IMG/VR virus record: IMGVR_UViG_3300047481_000206
Location: 1-20,272 of that record
Reading direction: 5' to 3' (one strand)
DNA: 20,272 nucleotides
Origin: a virus
The notes beneath the pieces were generated by a model that was not told the origin of the DNA, did not search any database, and worked only from the letters and a program-made list of their open reading frames with translations. Shown in pieces: positions 3,288-12,070 of the stretch (positions are counted from its first letter, which is position 1; every line of letters starts with the position of its first letter). Position numbers and translations under genes: made by a program.

Positions 3288-3677
3288 CTACTTCTTTCCG
3301 CCCTTGCTGGTTGCTGCCACTATCTCCGAAATTTGCTCTTCTGTTAGCACTGTGAGGGATTCCCGTGCCTTTCGGGACGAAAAGCCGTAATACTCCACAA
3401 GAGCAGCCACTCGTTCGTCCTCCTCCCGCTTTAGCCACTTGGAGAACCGCTTGCGGGGACGCACCGCACCCCGCAGGAAGTCAAAGTGCATTTTTGCGTC
3501 CAAGTGGGGGCGGGTGTTCATCTCGTTTGCGGCAAACAGGGTATCAGGGAAATACGACAAGCAGCGGGTCACCACGAACGGTGGATACGACTGCTTGGTG
3601 TACGCCTCGCTCTCGTCCAAGAGCGGTTCCTTGTTTACATTGATTGCATTTAAATAATCAGACAGTGCGTAGGTCAT
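3288..3677 (-). CDS. 62: Clamp loader small subunit gp62
   Basis: A 129-residue protein of the T4 gp62 type, which with gp44 forms the ATP-driven loader of the gp45 sliding clamp. The recognisable stretch is YPPFVVTRCLSYFPDTLFAANEMN (31-54), then HLDAKMHFDFLRGAVRPRKRFSKWLK (58-83), a block I know from gp62 of marine T4-like phages. It is shorter than T4 gp62 (187), as is common outside enteric phages. The ATG overlaps the methyltransferase stop (ATGA). In T4 it directly follows 44; here a methyltransferase gene intervenes. It ends in a basic GGKK. Confidence 0.88.
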   Translation of the reverse strand: MTYALSDYLNAINVNKEPLLDESEAYTKQSYPPFVVTRCLSYFPDTLFAANEMNTRPHLDAKMHFDFLRGAVRPRKRFSKWLKREEDERVAALVEYYGFSSRKARESLTVLTEEQISEIVAATSKGGKK

Positions 3678-4714
3678 GCGTGTTCCTCAAGAAGTTTATC
3701 AAGGGTTTGAGGAACGGCTTCCTTGATCCGTGCTTCTGCAATCTGTACGTACTCGGGATTGAGTTCACAGCCGATGAAGTCCCTGCCGTTCTTCAGGGAA
3801 ACCACCGCTGTGGTTCCGCTACCAGTAAACGGATCAAGCACCGTGCCACCCACGGGACAGCCCGCAAGCACACATGGCGTGATGAGGTCTTCGGGGTAAA
3901 CCGCAAAGTGTGCGCCCTTGTAGCCCCGTGTGGTCACAGTCCACAATGACCGCTTGTTGCGCTTGCCGTCTTCAGAGTATCCAGTTTTTCCATTTCTACC
4001 AAGAGCAAGACCTGCATACCCGTGATCGGTGTTTACACCATCTTTGATTTGCTTCCCAAGAGTTCCCACACCTGTTCGGTCTATCAATTTTTGCTTTCTT
4101 TCTGCTCGTCCAACCGAAGACTCCGCAAGTGGCTCCTTGACCGCTTCGTGATCGTAGTAGTAGTGGGGCTTCTTGGACAGCAGGAAGATGTATTCGTGTG
4201 CCTTCGTGCAGCGATCTTCCACGCTTTCGGGCATGGGATTAGGCTTGTTCCAGATGATGTCCTGACGCAGATACCACCCGTCCGCTTGCAGAGCGAATGC
4301 GACACGCCACGGAATGCCGATCAAGTCCTTGACTTTGATGTTGTATGCACCGCCACGGAAAGCCTTGCGATCCTCGTATCGGTCATGGTTCTTGGTGTGC
4401 AGATGCTTCTTGCCCTTGTTGTGGTCTTTCTCCAGCCAAGAGTTGATGTAGCAGCCATTGCTTGCATACGAATCTCCCAAGTTTAGCCACAGTGTACCGT
4501 CATCACGGAGAATCCGCTTGACTTCACGGAAAACCTCAACCATCTTCTCAACGAAGTCTTCGGGTGACTGCTCACGACCGATCTCATCGGTTCCACCGTT
4601 ATAGTTACGGAGTCCGAAATACGGAGGAGATGTGATACAGGTGTGAACGCAGCCGTCTGGAAGAGTCTTCATGCCTTCAATGCAGTCGCCTGTAATGATA
4701 CGATGTGTGTTCAC
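3674..4714 (-). CDS. Site-specific DNA methyltransferase (amino-MTase, beta-type order)
   Basis: A 346-residue DNA amino-methyltransferase (N6-adenine or N4-cytosine). The catalytic motif TSPPYFGLRNY (28-38) precedes the S-adenosylmethionine site DPFTGSGTT (294-302), the beta-class order. GCELNPEYVQIAEARI follows as the expected helix/acidic loop. The TSPPY-x-GLR-x-Y form occurs in many stand-alone phage methylases; specificity cannot be read. The start is GTG at 4714, because GTGA there overlaps the TGA of gene 44; an upstream GTG at 4750 lies deep inside 44. It sits between 44 and 62, which are adjacent in T4, and is joined at both ends by overlapping codons, so it is an inserted but fully integrated operon member. 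No cognate endonuclease is in the window, so it probably protects phage DNA from host restriction or marks it. Confidence 0.9.
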   Translation of the reverse strand: MNTHRIITGDCIEGMKTLPDGCVHTCITSPPYFGLRNYNGGTDEIGREQSPEDFVEKMVEVFREVKRILRDDGTLWLNLGDSYASNGCYINSWLEKDHNKGKKHLHTKNHDRYEDRKAFRGGAYNIKVKDLIGIPWRVAFALQADGWYLRQDIIWNKPNPMPESVEDRCTKAHEYIFLLSKKPHYYYDHEAVKEPLAESSVGRAERKQKLIDRTGVGTLGKQIKDGVNTDHGYAGLALGRNGKTGYSEDGKRNKRSLWTVTTRGYKGAHFAVYPEDLITPCVLAGCPVGGTVLDPFTGSGTTAVVSLKNGRDFIGCELNPEYVQIAEARIKEAVPQTLDKLLEEHA

Positions 4715-5664
4715 TTGAACTTCACTTCCATCATTAATTGAACAAGACACGCCGTGAGATTGATCTCGTGGTCGGCTGCAAACGCTGCCTTGTACTGGTA
4801 GTCGCCAAGCACAAGAATTGCTTGAGGAATGGAGCCAGGCTCAGCAGTCTCGTACAGACTGTCGTAAATGGCACGGAAGATACGGGTCTGATCGTTGTCA
4901 AGGTTCTCCACCACCCACTTGCGAACCCCACCAAAGTCCTTGCTCTTCATGTGCTTGAGCAGTTCCTTTACCGCCACATCACCCACAGAGTGGAGGATGC
5001 CCACATCAATCTTGCCACTTGCCCCGTACCGCTGCAACTCGTTCAGTGTGCGGCGAAAATCAGGGAAGTGCTTCATAATGAGTTGGGCAACCACCTTCTC
5101 ATCGTATTCCACCCCTTCAGTCTCAAGAATTTCCCCTGCTCGCTTCAGGAACTGCACCGCAAGCGCAGGCTTCTCCTTGCTCGGGATTCTGAAGTCAATA
5201 CAGGTGCATCGGGAGTGCAGCGGCTCAATCACTCGGTTTTTAAAGTTGCAGGTCAGGACGAAACGGCAGTTGTCCGCAAACTCCTCAATGAAACCGCGAA
5301 GGGCTGGTTGAGTGGACTGCGCGTTCGAATAGTCGAACTCGTCCAAGATCACCACCTTCTTTACCCCATTGGTGAGAGACACGGTGGAAGCAAAACTGCG
5401 AATCTTTGTCCGAAGAGTATCAATATTCCCGTCCTCGGAGCAATTGATGACAATGGTGTCGCAACCAAGATCATTACACAGTGCCTTTGCCACGGAGGTC
5501 TTGCCACAACCTGGTCCTCCCGACAACAGGAGGTTTTGTGGTTCTCCCCGTTCAACCATCCGCATGAAACTCTCATGCGTTTCCGCTGGCAAAATGCAGT
5601 CTTCCACGGTCTGTGGCCGCCACTTCTCAACCCAAAGACCCTTCACGGTTTCAATTGTACTCAA
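4711..5664 (-). CDS. 44: Clamp loader ATPase gp44
   Basis: The AAA+ subunit of the replication clamp loader. Residues (from the 5664 start) include VEKWRP (12-17), Walker A GGPGCGKT (49-56), Walker B VVILDEFD (104-111) and the arginine-finger SRC motif LHSRC (149-153), all diagnostic of the RFC/gp44 family. There is no ATG near the N-terminus. TTG at 5664 is preferred, with GAGG seven bases upstream and a start-to-WRP distance equal to T4. A TTG at 5670 overlapping the clamp's TGA (TTGA) would add two residues. It is 317 residues against 319 in T4. It lies directly after clamp gene 45, as in T4. Confidence 0.95.
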   Translation of the reverse strand: MSTIETVKGLWVEKWRPQTVEDCILPAETHESFMRMVERGEPQNLLLSGGPGCGKTSVAKALCNDLGCDTIVINCSEDGNIDTLRTKIRSFASTVSLTNGVKKVVILDEFDYSNAQSTQPALRGFIEEFADNCRFVLTCNFKNRVIEPLHSRCTCIDFRIPSKEKPALAVQFLKRAGEILETEGVEYDEKVVAQLIMKHFPDFRRTLNELQRYGASGKIDVGILHSVGDVAVKELLKHMKSKDFGGVRKWVVENLDNDQTRIFRAIYDSLYETAEPGSIPQAILVLGDYQYKAAFAADHEINLTACLVQLMMEVKFK

Positions 5665-7383: not shown

Positions 7384-8516
7384 TATTGTACCTGTAGAAG
7401 CAGGCAGTGTTTGTTTACCCGCCCTGTTGGAATCACTGATTTTGTCTTTATGTTGTTAAGGTAACGCACTGCAACAGCAAATGTTTTGCGGCAGTCATTA
7501 GTATTTTTCACAAACTCTTCGGATTTACGAACAGTCTTTTCAAAAGACTTGGACGAGTCAAAACCAATCACAGTAGACCCCTTAACAAGGAGTCCTGTTT
7601 TGGGTTCAGCCGCCACAAACACTGTAGCCTTGTTGTTCTTTGTGTTAAACATCAAGAATCCTTGTGTACCAAGAATATCACTTGGCTTCACAGAGTCAAC
7701 CCCAAAGACATTACTTTTTTCCATGAATTTTAGATTTTTGATCTGTGTCTGTACGCTCTTGGGTTTGCATTTTCGGGGCTTGCGTGAAGCATTCAGCACA
7801 CCAAGGCGGTCATTCAAATTACAAATGGCTTCATCAAAATATTCTATAAGGCACTTCATGCTCTTGGGCTTCAAGTACGAATAGCCCTCCACCAAGTCTT
7901 TGTCAGTCTTATCGTGTGCTGCCTTCAGGTCGCTGTAGGATTTTTGTAGGCGGTGTATTGCCATTGTAGCCATAGGTTTATTAAGGTCAGCACCCCTGAT
8001 CCAATCCATAATAGGATTGGGCTTCTTTTTTGTCCCAACCACGCTTTCAGATGCAAAATCAAGCACAGGCTCAAGAGTGGTCAGCATCTCGTTTGCCTTT
8101 GCTTCAATGCGATCCTGAACGGTAATTCGCTCCTTTGGTTCGGTGGGAACGCGCCGCCTTGCTTCATTAAGCAGTTCGTTCACATTCTTGCAGATAAACT
8201 CCTTCTGCTTTTCCGTCATGGGAAACCCGCGACTAGCACAACGGCAATACGCCGAAATCATCTTGAGTGAATTTTTGGATGCGTAAGACACCGCTTTTGC
8301 GTCTTCTTCCCGCCCCTCATCGGTTAGCCACTCTGCAATCCACTTTTTTGCAGCAGACGAAGTGAAATTCTGTCGATACCAGTAGACTGCCTTTTCCAAG
8401 AGTATATCCATATCTGCGTTTTGTGGAATAGCTGTAAATTCAGGTTCATTACCACCAGAAAGAATGCTGCGGGCGCGATCATTGGACAGTTTTCGATTCA
8501 TGGTTAAGGTTGGCAT
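7383..8516 (-). CDS. Conserved hypothetical protein between gp46 and RNase H
   Basis: A 377-residue cytoplasmic protein that I cannot assign. It is rich in Lys and Ala and looks helical in its first 300 residues (YRQNFTSSAAKKWIAEWL, KQKEFICKNVNELLNEARRR). The C-terminal 120 residues look more beta-rich (KATVFVAAEPKTGLLVKGSTVIGFD, then TGRVNKHCLLLQVQ). The ATG at 8516 lies 13 bases inside the end of 46; MNRKL at 8501 is an alternative start 2 bases after the 46 stop. The end overlaps the RNase H ATG by one base. Its fixed position among recombination and replication genes suggests a DNA-transaction role. No catalytic motif, zinc site or Walker motif is visible. Confidence 0.8.
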   Translation of the reverse strand: MPTLTMNRKLSNDRARSILSGGNEPEFTAIPQNADMDILLEKAVYWYRQNFTSSAAKKWIAEWLTDEGREEDAKAVSYASKNSLKMISAYCRCASRGFPMTEKQKEFICKNVNELLNEARRRVPTEPKERITVQDRIEAKANEMLTTLEPVLDFASESVVGTKKKPNPIMDWIRGADLNKPMATMAIHRLQKSYSDLKAAHDKTDKDLVEGYSYLKPKSMKCLIEYFDEAICNLNDRLGVLNASRKPRKCKPKSVQTQIKNLKFMEKSNVFGVDSVKPSDILGTQGFLMFNTKNNKATVFVAAEPKTGLLVKGSTVIGFDSSKSFEKTVRKSEEFVKNTNDCRKTFAVAVRYLNNIKTKSVIPTGRVNKHCLLLQVQ

Positions 8517-10222
8517 AGTTTGCTAAAGTTATTGACCTTCTTGTAGGTCAGAATGTTCTGAAACTTGTCTAGTAGTTGATCGGACTTGTGAGAGATAACG
8601 AAAATATTGTTGGAGTTTCCCATGCTCTGAAGAATCTTGATTACCTCTTCTGTGCCAACAGCATCAAGAGAAGAGTCAAATACTTCATCAAGAATAAGCA
8701 GGTTTGTGTTTGCACTGTTCTTCATCCTAGCAATATCTCGCCACGCCAGCAAGAGGGACAGGTCAATTCTTAATTTTTCACCCTCACTAAAATTATCGTA
8801 AGAGAACTCGTCACGGTGGCGGCTCTTGATTATTTCATTAAAGTCTTCGTTCAGTGTGAACTGTGCGAAAAAATCCATAGAAATCAAATACTTGTTGATA
8901 ATCTTGTTAAGGGCAGGAATGTATTTACGAATTATTTTTCGCTTTATTCCGCTGTCCTTCAGCAGCATTGTAGCAATTTCCATTGTGTGAAGATCCTCAA
9001 CGAATTCTTTTCGTTGTGTCTCTGCATTTGCTTCTTCTGTCTGCAACTGATTCATGCTCTGTCGTTCAGTCTGTACTGAATTCTTTTCTTCAGTAGTCTT
9101 ACTACACAAATCCTGCAATTGCTTCATGTACTTCTTGGAAGACGCAATAGCAGAGTCCGTCTTGTGTGACTCCTGCTTTTTGCCTTCGATTACAGACAGC
9201 ACCTCTGTGGACTTGTCCATTTTAATCCGTGCGTCATCAAGCATGGTCTGCATCTTCTGAAGGGCAGTGACCAGTTCTGTTTCACGTGCTTCTTTCTTGT
9301 TTATCATATTCTCACGAAACTCAGTTGGCAGTCCGTGCTTGCATACAGGACACTCTTCGTTCTGCTCGTAGAAAGACTTCTCGTCTTGCACCTTTTTCAC
9401 ACCACTTTGCATCTGCTTACGAAGTGCGCTCATCTGAGATATAGAGTCCCGCTGTTTGTCCACTGATGCCACACTTTCAGCAAGTTCAGCAATCTCTGTA
9501 TGTAGAGCAGCCTTCCGCTCAAGCAGTGCGGTGAGTGCAGTCTGCTCTTCGTCAAGAGACTTTTTGTACGACTCCAACTGGTTTTCAGACTTCTCTTCAA
9601 TCTTGGCGATCATGTCCATTTTATGCTTGATCTTTAGTTTGAGAGTGGACAACTCCGACTCTATTTCGCGGAGTTCTTCCTTCGTGGAAGAAATGCGGTT
9701 TTTTAGTGCCTCATTCATTTTTGAGAACACATCAATGTCCAACAGGTTCTCCACGATGTTGCGGCGATCCGCAGCTGGAAGTCGCATGAACGGCACATAA
9801 TTCGTGGAGCCAAGAATAACCACCTGACAGAATGTTTTGTAGTTCATCTTCAGAATCTGCCCATCAAGCACCACTTGGTAGTCTTTCACGTTCGCTGTCT
9901 GTGGAATTTCTGTTCCGTCCTTCTGAATAGAGAACACCTTCGGAGACAGCCCACGAATCACCTTGTATTTGCTGCTGTTGGAAGTGAACTCAATCTCCAC
10001 CACACAGTCTTTGCCGTTGATGGAATTAACAATCTGTGGCAGATTAATGTTACGAAAAGGCTTGCCGTACAGCACAAATGTGAGGGCATCCAACATAGTA
10101 GTCTTTCCCGCACCGTTTTCACCACAGATAAGGGTGGTGGAGTGCTTGTCTAATTGCACTTCAGTAAAGTAGTTGCCTGTGCTGAGTAGGTTCTTCCAGC
10201 GAATCTTATTGAATATAATCAT
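8504..10222 (-). CDS. 46: Recombination nuclease ATPase subunit gp46 (SbcC/Rad50-like)
   Basis: A 572-residue SMC-like ATPase that with gp47 makes the Mre11/Rad50-type nuclease used for end resection in recombination-dependent replication. Walker A is GENGAGKT (34-41). Coiled-coil arms flank the zinc hook CPVC (291-294). The ABC signature is NFSEGEKLR (477-485), Walker B is LLILDEVFD (508-516), and the H-loop is VISHK (542-546). The length matches T4 gp46 (560), so the gene looks intact. The ATG and its upstream region lie in the left copy of a 32-bp direct repeat; without the intervening cargo gene, the 47 stop would overlap this start as ATGA. Confidence 0.96.
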   Translation of the reverse strand: MIIFNKIRWKNLLSTGNYFTEVQLDKHSTTLICGENGAGKTTMLDALTFVLYGKPFRNINLPQIVNSINGKDCVVEIEFTSNSSKYKVIRGLSPKVFSIQKDGTEIPQTANVKDYQVVLDGQILKMNYKTFCQVVILGSTNYVPFMRLPAADRRNIVENLLDIDVFSKMNEALKNRISSTKEELREIESELSTLKLKIKHKMDMIAKIEEKSENQLESYKKSLDEEQTALTALLERKAALHTEIAELAESVASVDKQRDSISQMSALRKQMQSGVKKVQDEKSFYEQNEECPVCKHGLPTEFRENMINKKEARETELVTALQKMQTMLDDARIKMDKSTEVLSVIEGKKQESHKTDSAIASSKKYMKQLQDLCSKTTEEKNSVQTERQSMNQLQTEEANAETQRKEFVEDLHTMEIATMLLKDSGIKRKIIRKYIPALNKIINKYLISMDFFAQFTLNEDFNEIIKSRHRDEFSYDNFSEGEKLRIDLSLLLAWRDIARMKNSANTNLLILDEVFDSSLDAVGTEEVIKILQSMGNSNNIFVISHKSDQLLDKFQNILTYKKVNNFSKLCQP

Positions 10223-10283
10223 GACTTTGCGCTATCGTTTGCAATGCACTATCATTTCGTTCATAAAAACCGTAATTATTCAT
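10206..10283 (-). CDS. Possible 25-codon coupling mini-ORF upstream of gene 46
   Basis: An ATG overlapping the stop of the PLP-fold gene (ATGA) opens a reading frame of 25 codons. It crosses the direct-repeat copy and stops about 15 bases past the start of gene 46. There is no recognisable protein and no clear ribosome site. It could carry terminating ribosomes across the roughly 57-base gap to the 46 start and restore coupling lost when the cargo gene was inserted. It may equally be chance. Confidence 0.22.
   Translation of the reverse strand: MNNYGFYERNDSALQTIAQSHDYIQ
10217..10248. repeat. 32-bp direct repeat, left copy (before gene 46)
   Basis: This 32-bp block is 31/32 identical to 11039-11070, differing at one base (A here, C there on the plus strand). 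On the minus strand it encodes a relic of the gp47 C-terminus (CIANDSAKS, then TGA) and runs into the ATGATT start of gene 46. The two copies bracket the PLP-fold gene. Confidence 0.9.
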
Positions 10284-11044
10284 GCTCCTACATTCCAAAA
10301 AAGAACTGTTTTATTTCCACGATTCTTCATTACAAATTCCCATGCTTTTGCATCATATGTTGGTGCAGATGGAAATGGTGGCAAAACTTTGGCTGATTTA
10401 TTGAAAGGTATATCGCAATTATACACCTTTGCTTTACCATAATTTCCTTTATGCCCAACAGATACCACATTAAACTGTGCTTCTGGCCATGCAAGTTGAA
10501 GTCCGCGTGTCAGTGTACCACTAGAACCAACAGACCAAACCTCATCTGGAATCATACCAATATTATATCGTGCAACTTTAACAATACAAGCTAGAACATC
10601 AACATGATCACCCCCGATAGGAATCAGAACTCGATTTGTTGGATTTTCCTTTACATAATCTTTGGCTCGTTTTTCTGTCACACTCAACATTCCATTTGGA
10701 ACCCACCGCATATCAGCACCAGAATTAATTGCTTCTTGCTGGTACGGATGAAGTTTACTCATATCTCGTTGAGCCATGAATATTACTGCTTTTTTTCCGT
10801 GTCTCGCCGCTGCTTTAGCAAAACTAATTTGTGCATATCCAGTCGCAGGAGAACTTCCATATACGAATTCTTTATATGGCCATGTCTTGATCATATTATC
10901 TATGAACCGCATCTTTGAACCCCCGCCAAGAAGATCATCTCGAACTACAAAAATACCATCTTCTACGGTAATAATCGGGTTGGGATTTGGATCTTCCCAA
11001 TCCTGAACCATTTTTAGATAATCTTCTGCTGTTATCAGAATCAT
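10280..11044 (-). CDS. PLP-dependent-enzyme-like protein (fold type II), cargo gene between 47 and 46
   Basis: A 254-residue protein resembling the tryptophan-synthase-beta / ACC-deaminase / D-cysteine-desulfhydrase superfamily. LLGGGSKMRFIDNMI (38-52) matches the segment carrying the PLP-binding lysine (candidate K44). VYGSSPATGYAQISFAKAAARHGKKAVIFM (61-90) matches the cofactor-ring loop plus helix and strand. VWSVGSSGTLTRGLQLA (169-185) matches the glycine-rich phosphate-binding loop. It is shorter than ACC deaminases (about 330). The ATG at 11044 overlaps the 47 stop (ATGA); an in-frame ATG at 11071 lies inside 47. Sampled 60-base rows are 33-43% GC against about 45-52% in rows of 46 and 47. 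With the flanking repeats, this says it is an acquired gene. The reaction is unknown; amino-acid metabolism and DNA-base hypermodification are possibilities. Confidence 0.68.
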   Translation of the reverse strand: MILITAEDYLKMVQDWEDPNPNPIITVEDGIFVVRDDLLGGGSKMRFIDNMIKTWPYKEFVYGSSPATGYAQISFAKAAARHGKKAVIFMAQRDMSKLHPYQQEAINSGADMRWVPNGMLSVTEKRAKDYVKENPTNRVLIPIGGDHVDVLACIVKVARYNIGMIPDEVWSVGSSGTLTRGLQLAWPEAQFNVVSVGHKGNYGKAKVYNCDIPFNKSAKVLPPFPSAPTYDAKAWEFVMKNRGNKTVLFWNVGA

Positions 11045-11070
11045 GACTTTGCGCTCTCGTTTGCAATGCA
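11039..11070. repeat. 32-bp direct repeat, right copy (end of gene 47)
   Basis: This is the original copy. On the minus strand it encodes the last residues of gp47 (CIANESAKS), its TGA, and the overlapping ATGATT that starts the PLP-fold gene. It is 31/32 identical to 10217-10248. The shared first two codons (Met-Ile) of the cargo gene and gene 46 fall inside the repeat. Confidence 0.9.
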
Positions 11071-11439
11071 TTCCTTGTACAGGTCGCGCACAAGATTCTT
11101 TAGGCGACTTGGATCAGACAGGTTTTGTAGTGCTTCAATCTCTTTGTTAATGATAGAGATGGTGTCCTCACCCAAGTCAACGGGGTCGCTGTCCCCGGTT
11201 TGATCAAGTTGCAGGTCTTCAATGATCGTGACTCCATAAGGAGCCGTAGAGTAGATGGAGTCCACAAACTTTTCAAACAGGTACGGTTTTGTCTTCTGCT
11301 CCACAATGATGCGGACAAACTTGCCCCTAGTTCGCTCTTCATCCACCTTGATGTGCGTGGATTCGCTTGCTACTGTATCATCGTAGCGGATCTGTGTGAA
11401 TATGGTATGGGGATTTTTCACAAACTCCTTTCTTGTCAC
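11041..11439 (-). CDS. 47: Gp47 C-terminal part, out of frame with the N-terminal part
   Basis: The frame runs 132 codons from a GTG at 11439 and overlaps the end of the N-terminal ORF. From KEFVKNPHTIFTQIRYDD onward it reads like the continuation of gp47/SbcD: the post-nuclease KNP-x-x-x-F segment followed by an acidic capping domain (IIEDLQLDQTGDSDPVDLGEDT). Joined to residue 214 of the N-terminal ORF, it gives 342 residues, close to T4 gp47 (339). The GTG has no ribosome site, so independent translation is doubtful. The clean end and ATGA junction with the next gene suggest it is still translated, or was until recently. Confidence 0.8.
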   Translation of the reverse strand: MTRKEFVKNPHTIFTQIRYDDTVASESTHIKVDEERTRGKFVRIIVEQKTKPYLFEKFVDSIYSTAPYGVTIIEDLQLDQTGDSDPVDLGEDTISIINKEIEALQNLSDPSRLKNLVRDLYKECIANESAKS

Positions 11440-12070
11440 CGTAGTCGTTCATGGTTATCTGATACGGGCATCCCAAGTAGTGGATGTTCTCTCTGGAGTG
11501 CCGCGTGTGAAAGTGTCCTGTGTAAACAGCGGAAAACCGCTTGAACAGGTCGGAACTCATGCCCCCATCAAACGGTGTGTTCCGCAGCACTTGGTAGCCA
11601 TTCAATTCAAGGTGACCACACAGGATATCTGCGGGAGTCTCCGAGATGAACTTCAAGGATTCCGCCTCGTTATCTTTGTTGATCCACGGCAGCATCGCAA
11701 TAGGCAAACCGTCAAACTCAACGGTGGTGGGAGTTTCGTACACCACAAACTTGTCGGAGAACAGTTCTTGCAGCGAGTTCACCTCGCTCTTGTTCTTAAA
11801 GAAGATATCGTGGTTGCCAAGAATGCAGTGCATGGTCGTACCGCTTTCTTCAAGCCGCTTGATGAAACCGTTGCGGACGGCGTTCAGCGTCAGGAAGTTC
11901 ACAAACTTACGGCGATCCAAGAAGTCACCCATGTGAATAATTGTGGTGATGTCTTCTGCCGCAAGACGTGGAAAAAACACGCGGTCAAAGAATCGCATGA
12001 AGTGTTCCATGAATACGGGTGAATCATTACGCGCACCAAAGTGCGTGTCTGTCACAATGGCGATTTTCAC
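11378..12070 (-). CDS. 47: Recombination nuclease subunit gp47, N-terminal part (SbcD/Mre11-like), frameshifted
   Basis: The metallophosphoesterase domain of gp47, nuclease partner of gp46. Metal ligands are DTH (D8, H10), MGDFLDRRK (D49), LGNHD (N86, H87), CGHLELNG (H153) and TGHFHTRH (H186, H188), so the catalytic set is complete. The true sequence ends near K214 (DYGDKK). After that the frame reads an unrelated 16-residue tail (GVCEKSPYHIHTDPLR) to a stop at 11378, while the next reading frame continues the family sequence. The start is GTG at 12070 overlapping the 55 stop (GTGA). As written, the gene is split. Confidence 0.9.
   Translation of the reverse strand: MKIAIVTDTHFGARNDSPVFMEHFMRFFDRVFFPRLAAEDITTIIHMGDFLDRRKFVNFLTLNAVRNGFIKRLEESGTTMHCILGNHDIFFKNKSEVNSLQELFSDKFVVYETPTTVEFDGLPIAMLPWINKDNEAESLKFISETPADILCGHLELNGYQVLRNTPFDGGMSSDLFKRFSAVYTGHFHTRHSRENIHYLGCPYQITMNDYGDKKGVCEKSPYHIHTDPLR
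11425..11434 (-). other. 47: +1 frameshift point inside gene 47
   Basis: On the minus strand the frame reads GAC AAG AAA GGA GTT. Skipping one base after AAA gives GAG TTT GTG, the start of the conserved KEFVKNP continuation. AAA-G allows a tRNA-Lys +1 slip to AAG, so programmed shifting is conceivable. A one-base insertion, by mutation or sequencing/assembly error, explains it equally well. Confidence 0.8.

Follow-up and report, generated by a model that had tools for sequence, protein, structure and literature searches.

Probable lateral capture of a PALP-like gene between genes 47 and 46 of a T4-like phage, with duplication of the gene junction

How does an operon of overlapping essential genes accept a new gene? 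A review of T4-related genomes saw little to indicate how accessory DNA comes to lie between core genes (PMC2993671), and in a cyanomyovirus the insertion mechanism was said to remain unclear (PMC4503421). The question is raised by a complete virus record of 20,272 bases (IMGVR_UViG_3300047481_000206, here called the window), in which a gene for a PALP-like protein stands between genes 47 and 46 and is flanked by two copies of a short direct repeat (Table 1). A first-pass annotation, made from the letters of the window alone, had read this arrangement as a recent insertion that copied the junction. Our literature searches on gene-end duplication or illegitimate insertion in phages found no relevant report.

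Table 1. Features of the 47/46 region of the window
Feature	Position	Strand	Evidence
Gene 47, SbcD-like nuclease subunit, upstream neighbour	11041..12070	-	phrog_100, E 7.9e-79 (N part), 3.4e-14 (C part)
Gene 46, SbcC-like subunit, downstream neighbour, intact	8504..10222	-	phrog_77, E 7e-162
Cargo CDS, PALP-like protein, 254 aa	10280..11044	-	phrog_7093, E 3.9e-39; Pfam PALP below cut-off
Junction copy 1: gene 47 end, stop, ATGATT now serving PALP	11039..11072	-	single copy in L018 empty site
Junction copy 2: immediately upstream of gene 46 start, start included	10217..10250	-	ancestral AGTGC as in L018
Imported segment, continuous DNA homology of 84.8% to donor contigs L002-L005	10251..11046	-	blastn
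Left seam: TCATGATT, 8 nt common to recipient 47/46 junction and donor PALP start	11039..11046	-	
Remnant: 33 nt from the start of the gene after PALP in the donor (methyltransferase, MNNYGFYERND)	10251..10283	-	donor comparison
25-codon remnant ORF, starts on PALP stop (ATGA), ends inside gene 46	10206..10283	-	ORF reading

The repeat had been described as 32 bp long. The segments 10217-10248 and 11039-11070 are indeed 31/32 identical, in direct orientation and with a spacing of 822 bp, and comparison with relatives extended the duplicated unit to 34 bp, of which 32 positions are identical. In a repeat scan at a minimum of 22 bp and 85% identity, this was the window's only repeat outside low-complexity sequence. 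When 945 kb of related loci were shuffled with a Markov model, no repeat of that class arose.

We fetched 80 IMG/VR loci with gp46 and aligned the 47-46 region of relatives, the check that the first-pass annotation had proposed. Every sampled locus of the recipient clade that covers the junction (gp46 62-93% identical) has genes 47 and 46 directly adjoining, usually by ATGA, and none of these loci has PALP there. The closest junction-spanning relative is L018, whose gp46 is 93% identical in protein and 87.7% in DNA. Its empty 47/46 junction carries the repeat unit once, AGTGCATTGCAAACGAGAGCGCAAAGTCATGATT. When the cargo and one copy (822 bp) were removed from the window in silico, the remainder aligned without gaps to the L018 empty site over 300 of 300 columns at 89.3% identity, and also without gaps to the empty 47/46 site of L024. 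The expectation that this removal would rebuild a normal junction was therefore borne out, and the direct abutment in relatives supports insertion. PALP was found in one of 22 longer recipient-clade records, L068 (gp46 67%); that protein is 55-57% identical to the window's, is located elsewhere and adjoins a methyltransferase gene.

The donor type could be recognized from 16 contigs encoding a PALP 84-89% identical to that of the window. PALP follows gene 46 in 16/16 of them, and donor-type gp46 is only 44-46% identical to window gp46 in the 13 contigs where the whole protein could be compared. Where seen, the gene after PALP is methyltransferase-like (527 aa in L004) and starts on the PALP stop. 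In the tree, the window PALP is nested inside the donor clade, with node support of 98/96 for its grouping with L004, L005 and L007. The claim that the cargo is more AT-rich than its neighbours also held, since its GC3 is 0.235, against 0.53 for gp46 and gp47 and 0.20-0.30 for the donors. Judged from the contrast of 89% and 45% identity, the tree and GC3, the cargo is demonstrably foreign to the recipient. Together with the abutting genes and the single repeat unit of the empty sites, this agrees with the reading of a recent insertion that copied the junction. The nearest donors found are about 85% identical in DNA, and intermediate hosts of PALP are therefore possible. The dN/dS of the window PALP against the donors is 0.07-0.09, and R204K is the only change at residues invariant in 12 relatives. 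For these reasons the window PALP looks functional, though much of that history belongs to the donors.

An AF2 model of the cargo protein (pLDDT 85.5) matched fold-type-II PLP enzymes in Foldseek (E 8e-9, TM 0.6-0.7), and the protein is predicted to have the fold of these enzymes, the tryptophan synthase beta superfamily. K44, in a GGGSK motif, is invariant across 13 sequences and is the candidate PLP-binding lysine. Orf44 of Yuavirus PAE1 belongs to the same PHROG, phrog_7093 (E 4.7e-153), as the window protein. In M6-like phages a PLP enzyme is part of a thymidine hypermodification cassette (PMC9476957), and PAE1 Orf44, by its neighbours and genus, is probably the M6-type enzyme. The window protein is only 27% identical to PAE1 Orf44 and differs further in its company, since PALP is paired elsewhere with a DNA methyltransferase whereas the window copy is without this partner in its contig. 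PALP adjoins a methyltransferase gene in the donors and in L101 (from the record of L068), as well as in Microcystis phage Mae-JY30, where the upstream gene was recognized by its PHROG match. The PALP match of Erythrobacter phage R6L lies inside a long ORF annotated as DNA modification methylase. The pairing recurs in either order (L101, L098, L099, L004) and may be a fusion in R6L. PALP and the DNA methyltransferase are thus a candidate uncharacterised DNA-modification pair. No donor-type methyltransferase partner was found in the 20-kb window or in the contigs of 11 close relatives. Given its kinship with PAE1 Orf44 in phrog_7093 and the methyltransferase pairing, PALP likely acts in DNA base modification.

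Comparison with donors and empty sites fixed both seams of the insertion. The imported segment consists of PALP and the first 33 nt of the donor methyltransferase gene, and nothing further. At the left seam, TCATGATT is the start of both PALP and 46; this 8-nt match is partly forced, because both genes start with ATGATT and overlap a stop. On the right, donor sequence is lost after the first 33 nt of the methyltransferase gene (ATGAATAATTACGGTTTTTATGAACGAAATGAT). Recipient sequence begins again at AGTGCATTGC, and the two have 0-1 nt in common, without clear microhomology. Donor homology ends sharply, at seams untied to any recognition site. An exact search of IMG/VR, in which near copies of the window may be missing, found the right seam in no other contig, and this contig is the only one known to carry the insertion. 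The two junction copies have one difference each. The copy at 47 carries GAG→GAA, which is synonymous, and the copy before 46, which retains the ancestral AG-TGC of L018, carries GAG→GAT. Each copy has thus changed once since the duplication.

We consider it probable that the gene was captured laterally from a distant T4-like phage by illegitimate recombination or template switching, with duplication of the junction. Capture with junction duplication is well supported by the comparisons above; the mechanism, acting in mixed infection or in break repair, is what we infer from its products. The recipient was a T4-like phage, and the donor was of a distantly related T4-like type with the gene order 47-46-PALP-methyltransferase. 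Strand joining or DNA synthesis would have switched from recipient to donor at TCATGATT, where the starts of 46 and PALP are identical. It would then have followed the donor across PALP and into the first 33 nt of the gene behind it, before returning to the recipient at a point 34 bp upstream of the exit. The product has the last part of 47 and the region around the 46 start in duplicate, so that neither gene is truncated by the insertion itself. A return downstream of the exit point would have deleted the 46 start, which may be why the duplication survives. Selection for products in which the downstream gene retains its translation start region could account for a duplication of tens of bp. 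Template switching and the end joining of two broken genomes would give indistinguishable products.

The first-pass annotation had further proposed that both PALP and 46 keep a start overlapping a 47-type stop. The PALP start does overlap the 47 stop, as the 46 start formerly did. For 46 the proposal failed. In copy 2 a TGA TAG directly upstream closes the 47 frame, with no ATG, GTG or TTG between, and the copy-2 stop is therefore not read from a start in that frame. The remnant ORF reads across instead, crossing the 46 start and terminating 14 nt past the 46 start codon. It is thus the start region itself that survives upstream of 46, and translation of 46 is possibly coupled through the remnant ORF. 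Separately, gene 47 of the window is missing 35 bp near 11427 (window 11378-11439) relative to L018, L019, L024 and L031. This deletion causes a frameshift and splits the gene into ORFs of 230 and 132 aa, the second having a GTG that could serve as a restart; it is either a real mutation or a contig error.

The arrangement had also been offered as a general way for T4-like phages to load accessory genes, with a search for gene-end duplications at other junctions as the check. We compared 249 loci and catalogued 63 distinct insertion differences, with polarity established for a minority. The flank-duplication measure was mostly between -15 and +10 across this catalogue. As a control, insertions were simulated with a 4-nt duplication only; 0/149 scored 28 or more, and the maximum was 24. 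Well-supported high values were found for the window (34), L070 (41, by BLAST), L226 (49, with diverged copies) and L172 (30). Besides the window, junction duplications of 29-65 bp around different cargo were thus found three times in the catalogue, and once more by the repeat scan. L070 shares the anatomy of the window, including a next-gene remnant: the order is gp44 tail, MT-A70 gene, a gp62 start of about 22 nt, second gp44 tail and resident methyltransferase, and the 29-bp gp44-tail repeat is 27/29 identical. The duplication found by the scan, in L033/L179, is 65 bp long (61/65). The joint AAGGAGTTGAAAGATGTCAAAG, at which gp62 gives an AAG or AAGGA match, is common to L172, L334 and L179 and present also in contigs L333 and L335, whose only matches were to methyltransferases and none to a T4-like core gene. 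In L226 (6163-6945) a GIY-YIG gene separates 55 from 47 and is flanked on either side by a diverged copy of the gp47 start; the reading frame at the gp47 start of this locus appears shifted. High overlap values of L171, L139 and L161 were set aside, their flanking matches being weak or short (70-77% identity) and probably due to related neighbouring genes. That of L017 was set aside as low-complexity; at 2478-2693 this locus has a small inserted ORF ahead of gp55, together with what looks like a copy of the gp55 start (MAKKK), an uncertain case.

Gene-end duplications thus occur at other junctions, in L070, L172 (with L334), L033/L179 and L226. In addition, 25 of the 34 insertions with a typeable empty site fall at 4-nt ATGA/GTGA overlaps, compared with 30% of 2,859 background junctions; with simple ORF calling and few hotspots, among which gp44/gp62 recurs often, this enrichment is suggestive only. 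Most catalogued insertions are without a long duplication, and junction duplication is therefore one of several routes. Support for the wider rule is partial: recurrent scars and the overlap enrichment speak for it, and the insertions without a long duplication against it. Tentatively, overlapping ATGA junctions may be preferred loading docks in this phage group, where start-codon microhomology seeds capture and the survivors are products with a copy of about 30-50 bp from the recipient's stop/start region; junction duplication would then be a recurring signature of accessory genes captured into essential operons.

The gp44/gp62 junction is itself a hotspot for methyltransferase insertion between clamp-loader genes (L033/L179, L070, L172, L334, L049, and the window at 3674-4750). 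Different methyltransferases there have their 5' leader and 3' end in common, which suggests that the middle was swapped. In L057 (8090/9689) and L061 (11374/13298), direct repeats of 25-31 bp join gp44 to downstream glycosyltransferase-like genes; these short repeats may reflect chance or gene conversion.

Several other explanations of the scar were weighed. A free-standing homing endonuclease might have cut at or near 47/46, the PALP segment then being used in an illegitimate repair of the break. Such repair is documented in T4, and the GIY-YIG gene of L226 stands at the neighbouring 55/47 junction with a gp47-start duplication. We nevertheless regard this as unlikely, because there is no endonuclease gene in or beside the imported segment (the insert matches only phrog_7093), and the recipient site is uninterrupted in every relative seen. 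An assembly chimera of donor-type and recipient-type phages in one metagenome would explain a single contig whose gene 47 also has a frameshifting 35-bp deletion. It is very improbable nonetheless: such an error would have had to make two separate seams that go back to the same site, with different changes in the two repeat copies and a PALP whose DNA is 15% away from every known donor. Like scars also occur in contigs from other samples, and L172 and L334 repeat the same seam.

Direct repeats of about 34 bp around a cargo resemble those of att-flanked elements, and they could be att-like sites at which a recombinase acted on a circular cargo. But 11046-10251 holds only PALP and 33 nt, with no recombinase gene, and the repeat is the recipient's own coding sequence and absent from the donor contigs. 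The ends of the cargo are unlike, one lying at a start codon and the other inside the next gene, and the repeats at other cargos are unrelated in sequence. Site-specific integration is accordingly given hardly any weight. Movement as a cassette, transposon-like or of the PeSL type, would have a precedent in the promoter-stem-loop cassettes recorded as mobile in T4-type phages (as cited in PMC4503421). The window shows no terminator-like hairpin, no excess of promoter-like sites and no significant fold at either seam, and the cargo ends are without terminal inverted repeats; the probability left to such movement is close to negligible.

Lateral capture with junction duplication has partial parallels in known systems. 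Illegitimate double-strand-break repair in T4 yields microhomology junctions (PMC2988022), and there too phage recombination joins non-homologous DNA at short matches. That work concerned an intron and an endonuclease cut in crosses, whereas in the window a metabolic-type gene was captured in nature, and a 34-bp junction duplication and a piece of the following donor gene came with it. Ectopic insertion through invading foreign 3' ends has been proposed for T4-related genomes (PMC2993671), likewise for additions at core-gene junctions without mobile-element signatures. It was put forward there with 'few clues', while here the seams are resolved to the base and both donor-type and empty-site relatives are at hand. 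Mobile ORFs of fungal mitochondria duplicate gene ends in Allomyces atp6 and in Glomus atp6, atp9, cox2 and nad3 (PMC3630166). In these as in the window, the insert brings or creates a second copy of the upstream gene end and the host gene is complete. The fungal endonuclease ORF supplies a foreign C-terminus, whereas the window has a copy of the recipient's own end, a cargo other than an endonuclease, and a duplication that reaches across an overlapping stop and start.

With these data, the vague idea of illegitimate recombination followed by selection becomes a signature that is open to testing and to counting in phage genomes at large. They suggest a route by which an operon of overlapping essential genes accepts new genes.
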